Source: Planctomycetota bacterium
Lineage (GTDB): Bacteria; Planctomycetota; Planctomycetia; Pirellulales; Pirellulaceae
DNA: 34,897 nucleotides
NCBI GenBank assembly: GCA_024276655.1
Contig: JAJRWU010000241.1
Location: 1 to 34,897 of the forward strand
Direction of reading: 5' to 3'
The translations under genes and the position numbers were made by a program. The notes below the pieces were generated by a model, which was given only the letters and a program-made list of their open reading frames with translations, had not been told where the DNA came from and did not search any database. Shown here one piece after another: positions 3,540-29,694 of this stretch (the first letter of the stretch is position 1; every line of letters begins with the position of its first letter).

Positions 3540-3564
3540 ACGAGCCACGGGCCTGGAAAGCACT

Positions 3565-3668
3565 ACGGAACAGTCTTGAAGTTACATGCCGAAATAAAAG
3601 CCCGGCATTTTTGAAAATGCCGGGCTTTTCTGGACGACAACCGGTAACTTATTTCAGGACTATTCCTA
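3565..3668. mobile_element. MITE-like element, copy B (104 bp) with terminal inverted repeats and central hairpin
   Basis: The left end (GGAACAGTCTTGAA from 3567) is the inverse complement, with few differences, of the right end (TTTCAGGACTATTCC ending at 3666). The centre (3596-3629) is the AAAAGCCCGGCATTTT hairpin with one extra T. It matches the 13195-13297 element over its whole length in the same orientation, including ATGCCGAA left of the hairpin and ACAACCGGTAA right of it. CTACG occurs just outside both ends and may be a 5-bp target duplication. No protein is encoded, so it would depend on a transposase elsewhere. It lies between convergent xerC and the anti-sigma gene, where the hairpin may terminate both. 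Confidence 0.78.
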
Positions 3669-11615: not shown

Positions 11616-12040
<425 letters not shown>

Positions 12041-12056
12041 TTTTTTTACAACGACA

Positions 12057-12819: not shown

Positions 12820-13192
12820 GTTCTCTCAAAACAAGTAGCAACTAATCAACACGTAAAACAGTATCGCATATGATACTACCTGTCAACCGGAAAAGCTGAG
12901 ACATCGCCACGGCGGCGGTGATGCCTTCGGCGCGAATCTGCACTTTCGCCCAGGGCCAGGCGCCGAAATTGCGATGGCAGTTGGCATAGAAGTTATCGAC
13001 GCCGCGCGGCAAATAGATTGAGCACCAAATCACTGCGGCGGTAGCAGGCGCCGGCGTGTGTTTTTCATGGCGATTCCAGCGGCTGCACGCGCAAGGTCGA
13101 AAGCCCCACTTGGTCGGATTGTAAACGCCAATCTCATTCCTGATCGCTTTCGGCTGGCGGGCCTAGCGAATGCCGATCTCCAGCAACACGCT
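12820..13192. other. Gene debris without an intact reading frame
   Basis: The minus strand has protein-like stretches in more than one frame, such as YLPRGVDNFYANCHRNFGAW (part of a 63-codon frame, 13033-12842) and IGVYNPTKWGF further upstream (near 13120). They may be remnants of one or two genes, but none is complete and no family could be named. The MITE at 13195 lies directly upstream of this debris. Confidence 0.4.
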
Positions 13193-13194
13193 CT

Positions 13195-13297
13195 TAGGTA
13201 CAGTCCTGAATAAACATGCCGAATTAAAAGCCCGGCATTTTGAAAATGCCGGGCTTTTCTGAACCACAACCGGTAATTTATTTCAGGACTGTTCCTA
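13195..13297. mobile_element. MITE-like element, copy C (103 bp)
   Basis: The ends are GGTACAGTCCTGAA (from 13197) and TTCAGGACTGTTCC (to 13295), which are inverse complements with one mismatch. The inverted similarity continues into AATAAA/TTTATT. Both ends are bordered by TA (TAGG...CCTA), or by CTTAG/CTAAG if the border is read 5 bp wide. The centre is the perfect AAAAGCCCGGCATTTT hairpin (13226-13258). There is no coding capacity. It sits 16 bp before copy 2 of the rnpB repeat, so it belongs to the inserted segment or landed in it later. Confidence 0.82.
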
Positions 13298-13313
13298 AGC
13301 CGAATAGCCGTCG

Positions 13314-13445
13314 CCGCGACGTTATTACTTCCGGGTAGGCTGCTTGAGGCGACGGGCAATCGTCGTCCTAGATAAATGGCCATCACCCGCCTGTTCAGGG
13401 CGGGCACAGAACCCGGCTTATAGGTCTGCTCCAAGGTTTTTTACA
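13314..13445 (+). pseudogene. Truncated second copy of the rnpB 3' end (direct repeat copy 2)
   Basis: 123 nt (13314-13436) identical to the 3' end of rnpB, followed by six Ts. It contains the GATAAATGGCC region, the CR-V sequence ACAGAACCCGGCTTAT (13406-13421) and the 3' strand of P1, but lacks the 5' two-thirds including the P1 and P4 partner strands. It therefore cannot fold as RNase P RNA. Perfect identity of a non-functional copy implies recent duplication or ongoing homogenisation. The T-run may still act as a terminator for the convergent gene on its right. Confidence 0.92.
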
Positions 13446-23201: not shown

Positions 23202-23560
23202 GACGATCCACCCTGTAAATGGCTGCTGTATAAATGGCCTTGCCCTGCTACGCGCGTTACGCGTCGATCAGGTTTGCCAGTCCACGTCTTGTGTTTCAGT
23301 GTAATTACGCCCCCGCGCCGCCCAGGCACCAAGACTCTGGCATTTCCGCCGATCTTTTCCGCAACGCGCCGATTGCGACCGTCGCAACGAATGGGAGGGT
23401 TGGCGCCGTTGCAGGAAGACGGTCGCGAGCGACGACGTAGGCCAAACGCGGGGGGTGGCGGGTTGTTACGCCCGGCGTTCTAATCGAGGTTCCGCCGCTC
23501 CCGCACGATCTTTTCCTCTGCGCCCGCATTACTTTTTTGTCAGGCCGGAACCGACTCGCC
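23202..23560. other. Divergent promoter region between the exopolysaccharide operon and addB
   Basis: 359 bp without a convincing gene; small frames here are shadows. It must hold promoters for both the minus-strand operon and addBA. No confident -35/-10 pair, operator or riboswitch could be identified by eye. A TTG at 23537 extends addB by 8 codons into this region. Confidence 0.5.
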
Positions 23561-26338
23561 ATGCCGATTACCCGCACGTTTCTCGACTGGAGCCGCCCGT
23601 TGCTGGGCCAAGCCGCTGAATATCTGGTGGCGCGTTTTTCCGAACCGGGGCGTTTGGAGTTGAGCCGCGTCGTGGTCGCGACGCCCGGTTCGCGCCCCGG
23701 CCGCACGCTCTTGAACCTCTTGCTGCAACGCGCCCGCCAAGAAGAGTGGATCTTCACCCCGCCGCAAATGTTGACCGTCGGCGCCTTGCCGGAATGTCTT
23801 TACACTTCCCGGCGGCCGCTGGCCTCCGACTTGGTGCAGCAACTCACCTGGGTCGCCGCGCTCCAAGACGCCCGGCCCGCCGACCTCTCCGCCTTCGCGC
23901 CGAAATGGCCGGAGAACAACGATGTGTTGCAGTGGCTCTCGCTGGGCCGTCTGCTCTGGCGCCAGCACCGCGAATTGGCCTCCGACGGACTCGACTTTTC
24001 GCACGTGTGTGCGTCGAACGTCAAGGTGGATGGTTTCCAGGAAGCGATTCGTTGGCGCGCCTTGGCGAAAGTACAAGCGGCGTATTTACAAAAGCTCGAC
24101 GCGCTCGAACTCTGGGACACGCAAACGGCGCGGCTGTTCGCCATCGAACATCGGGAATGCCGCACCGAAAAGGAGATTGTGTTGGTCGGCGCCGCCGACA
24201 TGAACCGCGCCACGCGGTTGATGCTCGATCAGGTTGCTGATCGTGTCGCGACCTTGATCGCGGCGCCTGCGGAGCGGGCCGATTATTTTGACCAACACGG
24301 CTGCATCGCTCCCGCCGCCTGGAAAAACGCCCTGATCGACATTCCGCTGGAGCGCGTGCGGGTGGTCGATACCGCGGCCGACCAAGCCGAAGAAGCCGTG
24401 CGCATTGTCGCCGGTTTTGACGGCCGATTTCGCGCCGAAGAAATCGCGATCGGCGCGCCCGACGAAAGCCTCGCCCCGCGCATACAGCGCTGCCTGTCGG
24501 ATTGCGGCGTCGCCTCGCGCTGGGTGATCGGCCAACGCCTCCAAGACACCGGCCCCTTTCGATTCCTTCAGGCCGTGGCCGACTACGCCAACCGCCGCCG
24601 CTTTAGCGAATTTGCCGCCTTGGCCCGCCACCCCGACGTTTACGATTGGCTGTTGCAAAACACCGGCGGCGCCCATTGGCTGGGCGAACTCGACGCCTAC
24701 CACGGCGAACACCTCCCTCCCCGGCTGGGCCATTGGCTGGGTGACAACAAGCGTTTCGTGCAGCTCAAAAAAGCGTTCGAGAAAGTTGACTCGTTGCTGG
24801 CGCCGCTGCGTTCCAATACGCGCAAGCTCAACCAATGGGCCCAGCCGCTGCAAGAAATGTTAGCCGAGGTTTATGGCGCCTTGCAACTCGACCAACAATC
24901 GGAAGACGGCCACTACTTGGCGAAAACACTACGTGAAATTCGCAACGCCCTGGCCGAACACGCGGCGGGGTCGCCAACGGTTTCGCCCGCCATCAGCGCC
25001 GCCGACGCCATACGTCTTCTTTTAGAAAGCCTCGCAAGCAAAACGCTGGCCCCGCTCCCTAGTGAAGACGCGCTCGAAGTGTTGGGCTGGTTGGAGTTGC
25101 CCTTGGACGACGCGCCGGCCTTGGTCGTGACCTCGTTCAATGAAGGGCGCGTGCCGACGTCGCTCAATTCCGATATTTTTCTGCCCAATCGCTTACGCAG
25201 AAAATTGGGCATCGAAGATAACGACCGCCGCTACGCGCGCGACGCCTACGCCACGAGCCTGCTCTTGGCTGCGCGCCAAGAGGTTTATTTTATCGTCGGC
25301 CGGCGCGATACGGAGGGAAACCCCTTGATTCCCAGCCGGTTGTTGTTTGCCGCGCCCGAAGATCAAATCGCGGAGCGCGTGCGGCATTGTTTCCAAGCCC
25401 AAGATGCAACGCAACAACGGCGTTTGAAGTCGAATGCGCCCCAAGCCGGCGCGGAGTCGCGTTTTTATGTTCCCCGGCCGAAGCCGCTCGAACAACCGAT
25501 CGAATCGTTGAGCGTGACGGAGTTTGGCGGCTATTTGGCGTGCCCCTATCGCTATTATTTGCGGCGTTGTTTGAAGCTGCAAACGTCGGACGATTCCGCC
25601 GAGGAACTCGGCGCAGCCGATTTCGGCAACCTGCTGCACGACGTGCTGGCCCGTTTCGGTTTGAGCGAACAGCGAGACTTGCAAAACGCCGAGCCCATTT
25701 ATCAATTCCTGCAAGACGCCCTGCGCCGCGCGGTGGCCGCCCAATATGGCAAGCATCACCTGCCGGCGGTGAATGTTCAACTGGCGCACCTCCGCCGCCG
25801 ATTGGAGGCCTTCGCCCAATGGCAGGCCGAACATGCACGGCAAGGCTGGAGAATCATACACACCGAAACATCCTCCCAAGACGCCCCCACGCTGCTCAAA
25901 TTAAAAGACCGCTCCATCCTGCTGCGCGGCAGGATCGATCGGATTGATCGTAACGAAGCCAGCGGCCAGTGGCGGATTCTCGACTACAAAACCTCCGACG
26001 CCGCCAAACCACCGGAGCAAACGCACCGCCGCGCCGGCGCCTGGATCGACCTCCAACTGCCGCTCTACCAACTCTTGGCCCGGTCGTTGGGGGTGACCGG
26101 CGAAATCGAACTCGGCTACATCCTACTCCCCAAGGATATCGCCCGCGTGGGTGAAGCGATGGCCGCCTGGGACGATGAACTGATCGCCGCGGCGCAGGAT
26201 GTCGCCCGTTGCGCCGCGGAAGACATACTGGCTGAAACATTCTGGCCGCCGACCGATCCGCCACCGCCAACAATGACGGAATTCTCCGACATCTGCCAAG
26301 ACGCCGCCTTCGAACGCGGCGTTCTCGAAAACGAATAA
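23561..26338 (+). CDS. addB: AddB-like subunit of a helicase-nuclease (PD-(D/E)XK nuclease)
   Basis: 925 residues from ATG 23561 (MPITRTFLDWSRPLLGQ); a TTG at 23537 is in frame. The N-terminal two-thirds is a degenerate, inactivated helicase-like fold typical of AddB (VVVATPGSRPGRTLLNLLL, and the EDALEVLGWLELPLDDAPAL and SFNEGRVPTS segments near 500-530). The C-terminal RecB-type nuclease domain begins with SVTEFGGYLACPYRYYL and has LLRGRIDRID (Asp793) and WRILDYKTSD (Asp808, Lys810), the metal-binding and catalytic residues. With AddA it forms the enzyme that unwinds and degrades double-strand DNA ends to load RecA. The C-terminus GVLENE-stop is duplicated in altered form (GVFENE-stop) just before addA. 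Confidence 0.85.
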   Translation: MPITRTFLDWSRPLLGQAAEYLVARFSEPGRLELSRVVVATPGSRPGRTLLNLLLQRARQEEWIFTPPQMLTVGALPECLYTSRRPLASDLVQQLTWVAALQDARPADLSAFAPKWPENNDVLQWLSLGRLLWRQHRELASDGLDFSHVCASNVKVDGFQEAIRWRALAKVQAAYLQKLDALELWDTQTARLFAIEHRECRTEKEIVLVGAADMNRATRLMLDQVADRVATLIAAPAERADYFDQHGCIAPAAWKNALIDIPLERVRVVDTAADQAEEAVRIVAGFDGRFRAEEIAIGAPDESLAPRIQRCLSDCGVASRWVIGQRLQDTGPFRFLQAVADYANRRRFSEFAALARHPDVYDWLLQNTGGAHWLGELDAYHGEHLPPRLGHWLGDNKRFVQLKKAFEKVDSLLAPLRSNTRKLNQWAQPLQEMLAEVYGALQLDQQSEDGHYLAKTLREIRNALAEHAAGSPTVSPAISAADAIRLLLESLASKTLAPLPSEDALEVLGWLELPLDDAPALVVTSFNEGRVPTSLNSDIFLPNRLRRKLGIEDNDRRYARDAYATSLLLAARQEVYFIVGRRDTEGNPLIPSRLLFAAPEDQIAERVRHCFQAQDATQQRRLKSNAPQAGAESRFYVPRPKPLEQPIESLSVTEFGGYLACPYRYYLRRCLKLQTSDDSAEELGAADFGNLLHDVLARFGLSEQRDLQNAEPIYQFLQDALRRAVAAQYGKHHLPAVNVQLAHLRRRLEAFAQWQAEHARQGWRIIHTETSSQDAPTLLKLKDRSILLRGRIDRIDRNEASGQWRILDYKTSDAAKPPEQTHRRAGAWIDLQLPLYQLLARSLGVTGEIELGYILLPKDIARVGEAMAAWDDELIAAAQDVARCAAEDILAETFWPPTDPPPPTMTEFSDICQDAAFERGVLENE

Positions 26339-26341
26339 CCT

Positions 26342-26437
26342 ATGCGAACCGTTGGAGTTCACGCTTTAGCGTGCTTTCTTTTTCTACACATGCTAAAGCA
26401 TGAACTCCAACGGCGCGGCGTCTTTGAAAATGAATAA
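26342..26437 (+). CDS. 31-codon mini-ORF spanning the hairpin between addB and addA
   Basis: It starts at ATG 26342, 3 nt after the addB stop, and ends with TAA at 26435-26437, 2 nt before the addA start. The first 24 codons are the hairpin repeat and the last seven (RGVFENE) copy the addB C-terminus. Such a frame could keep ribosomes moving from addB to addA after an insertion separated them. It has no ribosome site of its own and probably no functional product. The call as a translated gene is weak; the frame itself is certain. Confidence 0.3.
   Translation: MRTVGVHALACFLFLHMLKHELQRRGVFENE
26349..26413. repeat. Long hairpin repeat inserted between addB and addA
   Basis: CCGTTGGAGTTCACGCTTTAG (26349-26369) is the inverse complement, with one C/T difference, of 26393-26413. 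The loop is TTCTTTTTCTACA-like. A 15-nt piece of it (GCTTTAGCGTGCTTT) recurs at 8392-8406 next to the DUF1080 gene, so it belongs to a dispersed family. It is flanked by two related 25-bp segments (26316-26340 and 26415-26439; 21 of 25 identical). Confidence 0.8.
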
Positions 26438-26439
26438 CC

Positions 26440-29400
26440 ATGTCTAACGAACACGTCCTGATTCGCGCCTCGGCGGGAACGGGAAAAACTCACCAACTCA
26501 CCAGCCGGTACTTGCGTTTGGTCGCCGACGACGCCGCAGCGCCGGAAATTTTGGCCGCCACCTTCACGCGCAAGGCGGCGGGCGAAATTCTCGAACGCAT
26601 TGTCACGCGGCTGGCCGAAGCCTGCTTGCAGGAACGAAAACGCGTCGAACTGGCCCAGCACCTGAGCCTAGAGGTATTGACGCCGCAGCGTTGCCGCCGG
26701 CTGCTCAAATCACTCACCTCGCAACTGCATTGCCTCCGCATTGGCACGCTCGACAGTTTCTTCGCTCAAGTGGCGGGTAGTTTTAGTTTGGAACTGGGGC
26801 TGCCCACCGGTTGGAGCATTGCCGACCCGCTGCACGACGCCAGCCTGCGCAGCGAAGCGATCGAAACAATTTTAAGAGACGCCGAATCGAGCGAAGTCGC
26901 GCGTTTGCTCAACCTGCTCGCCAAGGGCGACGCCGATCGGTCGGTGAGCGAACTGGTGCGTTCGACTGTCAATCGTTTGTATGGCCTGTTTGCCGACACG
27001 CATGAAAACGCCTGGCGAACCTTTCCCCAATTGCCGCTGCTGCCCGATGCGGAGCTTGCCGTGTTGATGGAAGCGTTGCGCACGGCAAAGCTGCCCAAGC
27101 ACAAGTCGATCGCCAAGGCGCATCAAACCAACTGCGAACAGGCGTTATCGGCCGATTGGATGGGTTTTGTCCGGAGCGGGCTGCCGAGCAAGGTTCGCCT
27201 GGGCGAGAATATTTATTACCGTAAGGAAATCCCCGCCGCGACGGTCGCGATTTACGAGCAGCTCATTCGGCACGCGCGGGCTTTTCTGATCCAACAGTTG
27301 GCGTTACAGACCGCCGCCACGTATGAATTGCTGGCGAAGTTTCATGACGTCTACCGGCGGCTCAAACACGATTCGCGAGCGCTGCTGTTCGACGACATCA
27401 CGCGTTCACTCGCTGGCGGAGAGTCGATGCGCGATGTCGAGCGGCTCGCCTTCCGGCTCGATGCGAGTGTGTCGCATCTGCTGCTGGACGAATTTCAAGA
27501 CACCTCCGGCAAACAATGGAGCGTGTTGCGGCCGCTCGCCGAGCGGACGATTCGCCCGGCGGACGGCGGGAGTCGGGCGCCGGCGCGGTCTTCCTTTTTT
27601 TGCGTCGGCGATATCAAGCAAGCCATTTACGCCTGGCGGGGCGGCCGCGCGGAAATTTTCGGCGCCTTGGAGAAGCAACTTCCGGAACTGACCCTCGATG
27701 CACTCACCGCCAGTTACCGTTCCTCGCAGCCCGTGATCGACGTCGTGAACGAAGTCTTTCAGGGGATCGGCCGACACGCCAACCTCGAAACGGCGGAGGC
27801 GGCCGTGAAAGATTGGAGTGAACTCTTTCCGCGACACACCACCGTTCGAACCGATTTAACCGGCCATGTTCAGTTGCTTACCGCGCGCCGCGCCGACCCC
27901 GACGATCAAACTCCGATCGACGCCGTCATCGAAGCCGCTGCCGACAAAGTGGAGGAACTGCTCGCCGAAACGCCAGGATTGGAAATTGGCCTGTTGGTGC
28001 GGCGCAATGCGGTCGTGGCGCGAACGATTTTTGAACTGCGCCAGCGCGGCGTTCGCGCCAGCGAGGAAGGAGGCAATCCTCTGACCGACTCCGCGCCCGT
28101 GCAGCTTGTGCTTTCGGCGCTGCGGCTGGCCGACCATCCCGCCGATACGATCGCGCTGATGCATGTGGCGAATTCGCCCCTGGGGACCGCGCTCGGTTTG
28201 CCGGCTTTCCCGCCCGATGCAAATCAGGAAAATAATTCCAACAACAACACGGAAAATGTTGCCGAAGAGGTCGCGGCTGGGTTGCGGCGGCGGCTCTTGC
28301 AGCAAGGTTATGGACCTGTTCTCGAAAGTTGGCTGGAGCAACTCGCCGAGTGCTGCAACACCCGCGATTTGAATCGGCTGCGGCAACTGGCCGAACTAGG
28401 GTACGCCTACCAAGACACCGCCACGCTCCGCGCGACCGACTTCGTGCGGCATGTCGAGAACCAAAGAGTGGCCGATCCTTCCGCCGCTTCGGTGCGTGTG
28501 ATGAATGTGCATCAGGCGAAAGGTTTGCAGTTCGACGTGGTGGTGCTGGCCGATCTTGAGTCTTCGTTGATCGGCCAGTCGCCGAGTTACGTGATCGACC
28601 AACCCGACCCGACCGAACCGATTGCGCGTGTCTGTTTGTATCGCAACAAGGAGATTCAGTCGCTGCTGCCCGACGACATGCAAACCATGTTCCAGCAAGC
28701 CACGCATGCCAAGGTCACGGAGACGGTGTGTTTGTTGTATGTGGCGATGACGCGCGCCGTGCATTCGCTTTACATCGTGATATCCCCCGCCAATGTGAGC
28801 GAAAAAAAACTGCCGCGCACCTCCGCCGGACTGCTCCGCGCCGCGCTCGCCGGCAATGAACCGGCGGCGCCCGAAGCAGTCGTTTACGAACATGGCGATC
28901 CACGCTGGGCGGCGGCGGTAAAATGGGATTCAGCGGAAAAGCAGCCGGAGCAAGCTTCGGAACAAGCTCCGCTGGAACTGCGTTTCGCCCAGCCCGTTGG
29001 CAAGCGGCGCGGCGTTCTGGGATCGGACAGTCCTTCCAATATGGAGGGCGGACGGCTGGCGGCGGCCGCCGATTTATTGCGCATCGACAACGCCCAGGCG
29101 ATGGCCCGCGGCACGCTGATGCACGCCTGGTTCGAGCACGTGCTTTGGCTGAACGATCCGCCGCCAACGCGGGAAACGTTGGTGCAAATTGCTCGCCAAG
29201 TGGGCGCCGCCAACCTGGATGTCGAGCAGATGATAAAAGACTTCCATCTACTTCTCGGCGCGCGGCAAATTTCAGAGGTGTTATCGCGGGAGTACTACGA
29301 CTTGGTTGCACAACCGGCGGCGTCCGCGACATCTCCCACGCCGTTTTCCGAGGTGTTTCTCCAACGGTTGGGCGGCAAGCGTCTTCGTTTGGACGTACGC

Positions 29401-29694
29401 AATGAGTTCCCCGTCGCGACCTGGGAAGACAACCAAATTCTCAGCGGGTTTGTTGATCGCCTGGTGTTGCTGTATGAAGATGATGTCGTGGTGGGCGCCG
29501 ATATTATCGATTTCAAAACCGATCGCATCGCGGACCACGACCAAGCCGCACTCGCGCAGCGTCTGGAACACTATCGGCCGCAAATCGAGGCGTATCGGCG
29601 CATCGTTTCGAGCATGTTTCGCCTGCCGCCGGAATGCGTGGCGGCGCGCCTGTTATTCCTGACGCCGGTCGTTGTTTCACCGCTGCATGAATAG
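26440..29694 (+). CDS. addA: AddA-like UvrD-family helicase with C-terminal nuclease domain
   Basis: 1084 residues. Superfamily 1A helicase motifs in order: Walker A ASAGTGKT (10-17), motif Ia ATFTRKAAGEI, Walker B LLLDEFQDTS (Asp350, Glu351), motif III GDIKQAIYAWRGG, motif V VMNVHQAKGLQFDVVVLADL and motif VI LLYVAMTRAVHSLYIV. The C-terminal PD-(D/E)XK domain has RGTLMHAWFEH and ADIIDFKTD (Asp1024, Lys1026). AddA supplies the motor and one nuclease, AddB the other. The genes lie in the order addB-addA, separated by 101 bp containing a hairpin repeat. There is no clear ribosome site before ATG 26440, so expression may have depended on coupling to addB. Confidence 0.9.
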   Translation: MSNEHVLIRASAGTGKTHQLTSRYLRLVADDAAAPEILAATFTRKAAGEILERIVTRLAEACLQERKRVELAQHLSLEVLTPQRCRRLLKSLTSQLHCLRIGTLDSFFAQVAGSFSLELGLPTGWSIADPLHDASLRSEAIETILRDAESSEVARLLNLLAKGDADRSVSELVRSTVNRLYGLFADTHENAWRTFPQLPLLPDAELAVLMEALRTAKLPKHKSIAKAHQTNCEQALSADWMGFVRSGLPSKVRLGENIYYRKEIPAATVAIYEQLIRHARAFLIQQLALQTAATYELLAKFHDVYRRLKHDSRALLFDDITRSLAGGESMRDVERLAFRLDASVSHLLLDEFQDTSGKQWSVLRPLAERTIRPADGGSRAPARSSFFCVGDIKQAIYAWRGGRAEIFGALEKQLPELTLDALTASYRSSQPVIDVVNEVFQGIGRHANLETAEAAVKDWSELFPRHTTVRTDLTGHVQLLTARRADPDDQTPIDAVIEAAADKVEELLAETPGLEIGLLVRRNAVVARTIFELRQRGVRASEEGGNPLTDSAPVQLVLSALRLADHPADTIALMHVANSPLGTALGLPAFPPDANQENNSNNNTENVAEEVAAGLRRRLLQQGYGPVLESWLEQLAECCNTRDLNRLRQLAELGYAYQDTATLRATDFVRHVENQRVADPSAASVRVMNVHQAKGLQFDVVVLADLESSLIGQSPSYVIDQPDPTEPIARVCLYRNKEIQSLLPDDMQTMFQQATHAKVTETVCLLYVAMTRAVHSLYIVISPANVSEKKLPRTSAGLLRAALAGNEPAAPEAVVYEHGDPRWAAAVKWDSAEKQPEQASEQAPLELRFAQPVGKRRGVLGSDSPSNMEGGRLAAAADLLRIDNAQAMARGTLMHAWFEHVLWLNDPPPTRETLVQIARQVGAANLDVEQMIKDFHLLLGARQISEVLSREYYDLVAQPAASATSPTPFSEVFLQRLGGKRLRLDVRNEFPVATWEDNQILSGFVDRLVLLYEDDVVVGADIIDFKTDRIADHDQAALAQRLEHYRPQIEAYRRIVSSMFRLPPECVAARLLFLTPVVVSPLHE

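Follow-up and report, generated by a model that had tools for sequence, protein, structure and literature searches.

A REPIN-like hairpin flanked by copies of the addB-addA junction in a planctomycete, and long flanking repeats at further members of its family

The junction between addB and addA in a Planctomycetota bacterium of the Pirellulaceae holds a DNA hairpin that lies between two copies of the same short segment, which raises the question of how an element can enter a tightly packed gene pair and leave both genes intact. The window analysed is one whole contig (G000:C168) of 34,897 nt from a 5.96 Mb genome assembled in 328 contigs. An addB-like gene with a PD-(D/E)XK nuclease domain (23537..26338, plus strand, from the ORF list; Pfam PF12705, E 7e-36) ends there with the stop codon TAA at 26336-26338, and an addA-like UvrD helicase gene (26440..29694, plus strand; PF00580, E 4e-36) follows after a spacing of 101 nt. 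The Pfam matches thus agree with the names addB and addA given in the initial annotation. We compared the junction, as had been proposed there, with that of a close relative, G001, the only same-genus genome among 40 searched (addA identity 95%; about 440 contigs). In this sister genome the two genes are 112 nt apart, and the same hairpin and the same duplication are found between them.

A 25-bp repeat pair with four differences had been noticed at the addB end and before addA, and it is indeed present. By comparison with G001 and flank scoring, the full repeat comprises a left copy of 31 nt (26315..26345, plus strand), which holds the addB end, the stop, the spacer and an ATG followed by C, and a right copy of 30 nt (26414..26443, plus strand), which has lost one nucleotide and holds the remnant of a former addB end, the spacer and the ATG of addA. 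In G001 the same hairpin lies between 31-nt copies that differ at 2 of 31 positions, with 78 nt between the copies as against 68 nt in the own genome. The flank-repeat score of the junction was 19 in the own genome and 27 in G001; among 6,806 cross-paired flanks used as a null, the 99th percentile was 12, one value (25) exceeded 19 and none reached 27. The flanking repeat at addB-addA is beyond chance. Alignment of all four copies, two from each genome, revealed nine variable positions, of which eight occur in one copy alone, one is common to the two copies of each species, and none tells the left copies from the right ones. It is therefore probable that the copies did not yet differ when the two species separated, which argues for a simple target duplication and against the earlier proposal that the insert came from recombination with a homologous addB end that had diverged. 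A simple target duplication not long before the species separated would be expected to give this pattern; the one position common to the copies of a species requires either parallel change or gene conversion. An ATG 3 nt downstream of the addB stop (26342..26344, plus strand) had also been pointed out; since the right copy includes the ATG of addA, we read the upstream one as the left-copy relic of the addA start codon.

The state of the junction before the insertion was assessed at 23 of 30 addA loci, namely in the own genome, in G001 and in 21 relatives. In 14 of the 21 relatives (addA identity 37-50%) a long upstream ORF, a candidate addB, ends in a stop whose overlap with a possible in-frame start of addA is exactly 4 nt. 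In one more (G015) the possible addA start lies 2 nt past the stop of the upstream ORF, and the remaining six show other spacing or no long ORF ending at the addA start. The original junction had been reconstructed as a tightly coupled stop-CC-ATG. The overlaps in the relatives bear out the tight packing; the letters, on the other hand, were probably TAA-CTT-ATG, because both repeat copies of G001 read CTT between stop and start.

The element itself had been described as a hairpin inserted between addB and addA and dispersed in the genome, and both its strong fold and its matches across the own genome uphold this. The inserted REPIN-like hairpin of 68 nt (26346..26413, no strand assigned) consists of two inverted REP-like units, and its exact ends are uncertain by a few nucleotides because the ends of the element share letters with the target. 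Its arms of 25 nt are 92% complementary, the DNA fold has a z of -7.1 with none of 200 shuffles as good, and no Rfam family was matched at the gathering score. The left unit (26351..26373, plus strand) carries a GTTGGAG tag and a small hairpin, and the inverted right unit (26389..26411, minus strand) is identical in G001. BLAST with the hairpin spacer gave at least 89 matches in the own genome (40 of 236 candidates scored), which merge by eye into at least about 40 places, and searches with further members list more. The same family search yielded 64 matches in G001 and 69 in the own genome, with further G001 places in other searches, and 16 of 199 genomes of the bacterial family, drawn evenly, matched the hairpin, the own genome and G001 included. 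The fetched sequence contained 122 doublets of inverted units (39 own, 83 from G001), mostly 59-73 nt across, and singlets are also present. Across the 244 units of these doublets the consensus is 23 nt long, GTTGGAGTTCACGCTTTAGCGTG, with the conserved GTTGGAG end and a small stem; since a doublet was picked when positions 1-8 fitted a pattern and its arms agreed at 14 or more of 23 positions, the conservation of positions 1-8 is partly built in. Positions 12 and 21 of the unit pair in 233 of 244 units (C-G 123, T-A 74, G-C 17, T-G 10, A-T 9), whereas the two arms of a doublet agree at position 12 in just 76 of 122 cases. Pairing is thus kept within units while the arms differ, and the conserved structure is a small hairpin per unit, as in the architecture of REP sequences, not one long stem.

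We looked for flanking repeats at other hairpins of the family as well. Apart from another repeat, a first test of 30 own-genome hairpins brought out addB-addA alone. Once G001 was included, 83 hairpins were set against the 6,806 cross-paired flanks, and the top scores of 28, 27 and 24 compare with a null maximum of 25. The widest test started from 124 hairpins (40 own, 84 from G001), 120 of which were left after dropping those whose best alignments were REP units. Scores of at least 18 were reached by 12 of the 120 hairpins versus 41 of 3,720 random holes; at a threshold of 12 the counts are 22 and 576, and the excess is nearly gone. The other 108 hairpins show no long flanking repeat at a score of 18 or above. 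Three repeats, at L020, L108 and L206, proved to be another palindrome (GGCATCCCGSCGGGATGCC type) and were left out of the locus count after scoring. The nine rows left represent eight loci, addB-addA (two rows), L100, L240, L114, L210, L212, L111 and L187, and a ninth locus, L106, scores 16; all repeat-flanked loci apart from addB-addA are in G001. The flanking repeats at L100, L240, L114, L210 and L212 are strong, while that at L187 is weak, with 11 nt exact at a gene end and an aligned length helped by the outer arms of the element. The lengths of the duplications vary by locus, from about 31 to 56 nt, which rules out a target duplication of fixed length. Among 47 hairpins of distant family members no clear long duplication was found; L283 has one abutting repeat of 16 nt, L276 and L292 are tandem arrays, and some copies in G024 are ringed by a different palindrome (AGGTCCCG type). 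The stop of the upstream gene lies inside the duplicated segment at addB-addA, L100, L114, L212 (after a DAHP-synthase-family gene) and L187 (after a 113-codon ORF, a weak case), and perhaps also at L111, where the contig starts close by. The start of the next gene is inside the segment at addB-addA and L100. This bias towards gene ends may be one of survivorship, in which insertions within genes would be lost and those in junctions would persist only where the duplicated stretch covers the needs of both genes.

Five of these loci were testable against the corresponding sites of the own genome, and three gave a clean result, one (L106) a similar but clouded one, and one (L111) a misfit. L100 (G001:C107) lies where a solute-binding-protein gene and a permease gene overlap, and in the own genome (C262) the ATGA junction occurs once, without a hairpin. 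The copies at L240 (G001:C137) are about 34 nt long and lie in a short spacer, those at L114 (G001:C183) are 56 nt long and hold an ORF end; in the own genome the first site (C167) has one copy and no hairpin, and at the second (C19) the segment occurs once and runs straight through, again without hairpin. Both copies at L106 (G001:C197) align to the same single place in own contig C61, where a different hairpin lies some 50 nt further on, and at the L111 site (G001:C307) own contig C219 shows one copy next to a hairpin unit, with a left flank that is unrelated. For L210, L212 and L187 no flank match was found in the subset of own-genome loci compared, the sites of L199:8368 and L188:2195 are too rearranged to judge, and between L022 and L112 the difference is an additional unit. 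No repeat accompanies the hairpin at three further presence/absence sites (G001:C40:19634, G001:C32 at L196:2337, and the hairpin of own C61), and the duplication is therefore not universal, or is sometimes lost. As the comparison covers two species, the single-copy sites might in principle have arisen by exact deletion from one repeat to the other; even then, an insertion with duplication is needed to account for the repeat-hairpin-repeat form.

Taken as a whole, the findings are likely to be best explained by a REPIN-like insertion with a target duplication of about 31 bp in the common ancestor of both species. This explanation starts from the shared insertion and duplication, the dispersed family and the hairpin-free single-copy sites at three other loci. 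The mobile hairpin would have entered a tight addB-TAA-CTT-ATG-addA junction and the insertion would have copied about 31 bp of target sequence in which addB ends and addA starts, such that the left copy would leave addB its tail and stop, the right copy would leave addA its start, and the gene spacing would have grown from 3 nt to 101 nt (112 nt in G001). Neither gene is broken because the copied junction supplies both stop and start. Some other insertions of this hairpin family would likewise have brought long duplications of varied length, several of them at gene ends, and we infer that the strands were opened in a stagger some 30-56 nt apart, the hairpin captured and the gaps filled in. 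Translation of addA would now begin at the ATG of the right copy, via reinitiation over the spacer or by independent initiation, and its coupling to addB would be looser.

Other routes to the same arrangement were weighed. The 31-nt gene-end segment might have been duplicated in tandem by replication slippage, with the hairpin landing later between the copies; short tandem duplications do occur, and most family members are without a long repeat. Against such a sequence of events, repeats and hairpin core touch at addB-addA, L100 and L240 (the repeats at L114, L187, L106 and L210, read by eye, adjoin longer outer arms of the element), and abutting on both sides at a score of at least 18 was found in 4 of 115 hairpin rows, which represent three loci, versus 33 among 20,000 random holes, for which the set-up differed slightly; the 12 listed of these 33 holes all fall within three repeat-rich loci. 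Because several loci show the repeat-hairpin-repeat pattern, two separate steps would need repeated coincidences, and we consider them unlikely. Recombination with a homologous and already diverged addB end looks plausible within the window alone, where most differences between the copies are silent in the addB frame, but it is very improbable in view of the copies of both species, in which no position separates left from right and those of G001 differ at only 2 of 31 positions. Hardly more credible is an assembly artefact or a chance repeat: although both genomes are fragmented (328 and about 440 contigs), they agree at addB-addA, the copies differ by mutations, unlike assembler duplicates, and the cross-paired flanks and random holes make chance agreement unlikely.

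The remaining alternative concerns the present role of the hairpin, which might have been domesticated as an addB-addA switch, be it an attenuator, an mRNA stabiliser or a coupling device acting with a 15-codon ORF. Three terminator-like patterns were found at 26200-26560 versus 0.6 expected, two of them on the plus strand in the left arm and loop of the hairpin, and by these pattern matches the hairpin may have a regulatory role. The right arm is identical in both species, and the 15-codon ORF that begins in it, MLKHELQRRG(V/A)(F/L)ENE (26390..26437, plus strand), is common to both and ends 2-3 nt before addA. However, divergence has affected the left arm and loop, also in length (68 versus 78 nt between the copies), and that one short arm is identical in species so close is only a weak sign of constraint. 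A bridging 31-codon ORF had been put forward as the coupling device; it does run from the relic ATG to 2 nt before addA (26342..26437, plus strand), but in G001 it meets a stop after 8 codons, which weakens the coupling role. As a conserved peptide the 31-codon ORF was rejected, just the 15-codon piece from the right arm being common to both species. An addA promoter within the spacer, which would have told against the coupled reading, was also sought, and no sigma-70-like match was found there, although this is weak evidence. We judge a domesticated switch to be improbable, and we think that the addB-addA insert is a tolerated passenger that loosened the old coupling.

Several other repeats were observed in the window and in the genomes. 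The RNase P RNA gene (Rfam RF00010) lies at 11620-12040 of the window, and 129 nt at its 3' end (11918-12046) recur exactly at 13314-13442; the pair brackets about 1.3 kb with a HicB-like ORF, and the arrangement resembles an insertion, or an integration, that made use of the RNase P gene end. A terminator-like palindrome, AAAAGCCCGGCAT..ATGCCGGGCTTTT, has several copies in the window (13190-13299, 3560-3668 and 2559-2602), of which those at 3560 and 13190 sit inside a longer repeat; the outer arms at 13193-13299 are inverted (29 nt, 79%), perhaps marking another MITE-like element. A group II intron match (RF00029, 58 bits) lies near the contig start at 52-132, with no link to the hairpin shown. 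Beside the L114 hairpin, a segment of roughly 227 nt (1725-1951) recurs whole or in part at many places of the own genome; it is multi-copy, its longer matches have about 77-98% identity, and several copies lie at contig ends. Among the hairpins themselves, the tandem array at L276 (G141:C116), from a distant family member, repeats its REP-like units about every 98 nt. L111 contains a head-to-tail array of REP-like units (264-364) inside one pair of 43-nt flanking repeats, which suggests local amplification, own contig C219 having fewer units.

REPINs, or BIME-like REP doublets, are thought to be mobilised by RAYT tyrosine transposases. The hairpin family resembles them in its small palindrome (a 23-nt imperfect unit, within the 20-40 nt of REPs), in the conserved tag at one end, in its dispersed inverted pairs (the 122 doublets in two genomes) and in the occurrence of both singlets and doublets, the latter being the mobile unit in REPINs in the excerpted account of PMC3116915. 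The tag differs, as GTTGGAG is neither GTAG nor CGTC, the tags by which two REP super-families are told apart in the excerpts of PMC3733652; the same excerpts place REP families in Planctomycetes and state that GTAG REP ends often give neighbouring ORFs their stop codons. Matches to the Y1 transposase domain PF01797 number two in the own genome and five in G001, both genomes being incomplete. All seven loci (match plus up to 1.5 kb) held only scattered tag matches of 11 nt with at most two mismatches and no unit stem, and hence we claim no link between a RAYT and the hairpin. Known IS200/IS605 members make no larger target site duplications according to the excerpted text of PMC2817692, whereas long repeats flank the hairpins at addB-addA and at further loci, three of which have a hairpin-free single-copy sister site, and duplications so long and so varied do not suit transposition of the IS200/IS605 type; still, three presence/absence sites are without a repeat.

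Known bacterial hairpin elements are not usually marked by long copied borders such as those at several hairpins here, and in the literature searched (also PMC2884548 and PMC12306157, as far as their excerpts extend) we found none described for the insertion of a REP or REPIN. How REPs and REPINs enter new places is still mostly inferred; if the long duplications are true ones, insertion scars could be read from genomes and used to study the chemistry and to search for the enzyme. They also suggest how inserts may survive between translationally coupled genes, as the copied segment can carry a stop and the next start. Bacterial MITEs (ERIC, RUP, Correia and IS630-derived elements) are likewise short, non-coding, dispersed inverted-repeat elements with a target duplication. 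Their duplications, however, are short and fixed (TA for several), while those described here measure about 31-56 nt, and because these lengths vary, a DDE transposase with fixed stagger does not fit. Longer target duplications are known from target-primed retroelements (non-LTR and SINE-like), for which variable length is typical, and from casposon and CRISPR integration; the likeness would be one of outcome only, an analogy of working. A tentative generalisation, possible yet rather doubtful, is that some bacterial REP-type hairpins spread via widely staggered target cuts and fill-in, which would leave duplications that vary between roughly 31 and 56 bp. Such a route would differ from transposition by Y1 or DDE enzymes, would come nearer in its outcome to target-primed insertion, and would let a hairpin land in an overlapping gene junction and break neither gene, each receiving its own copy of the overlap.
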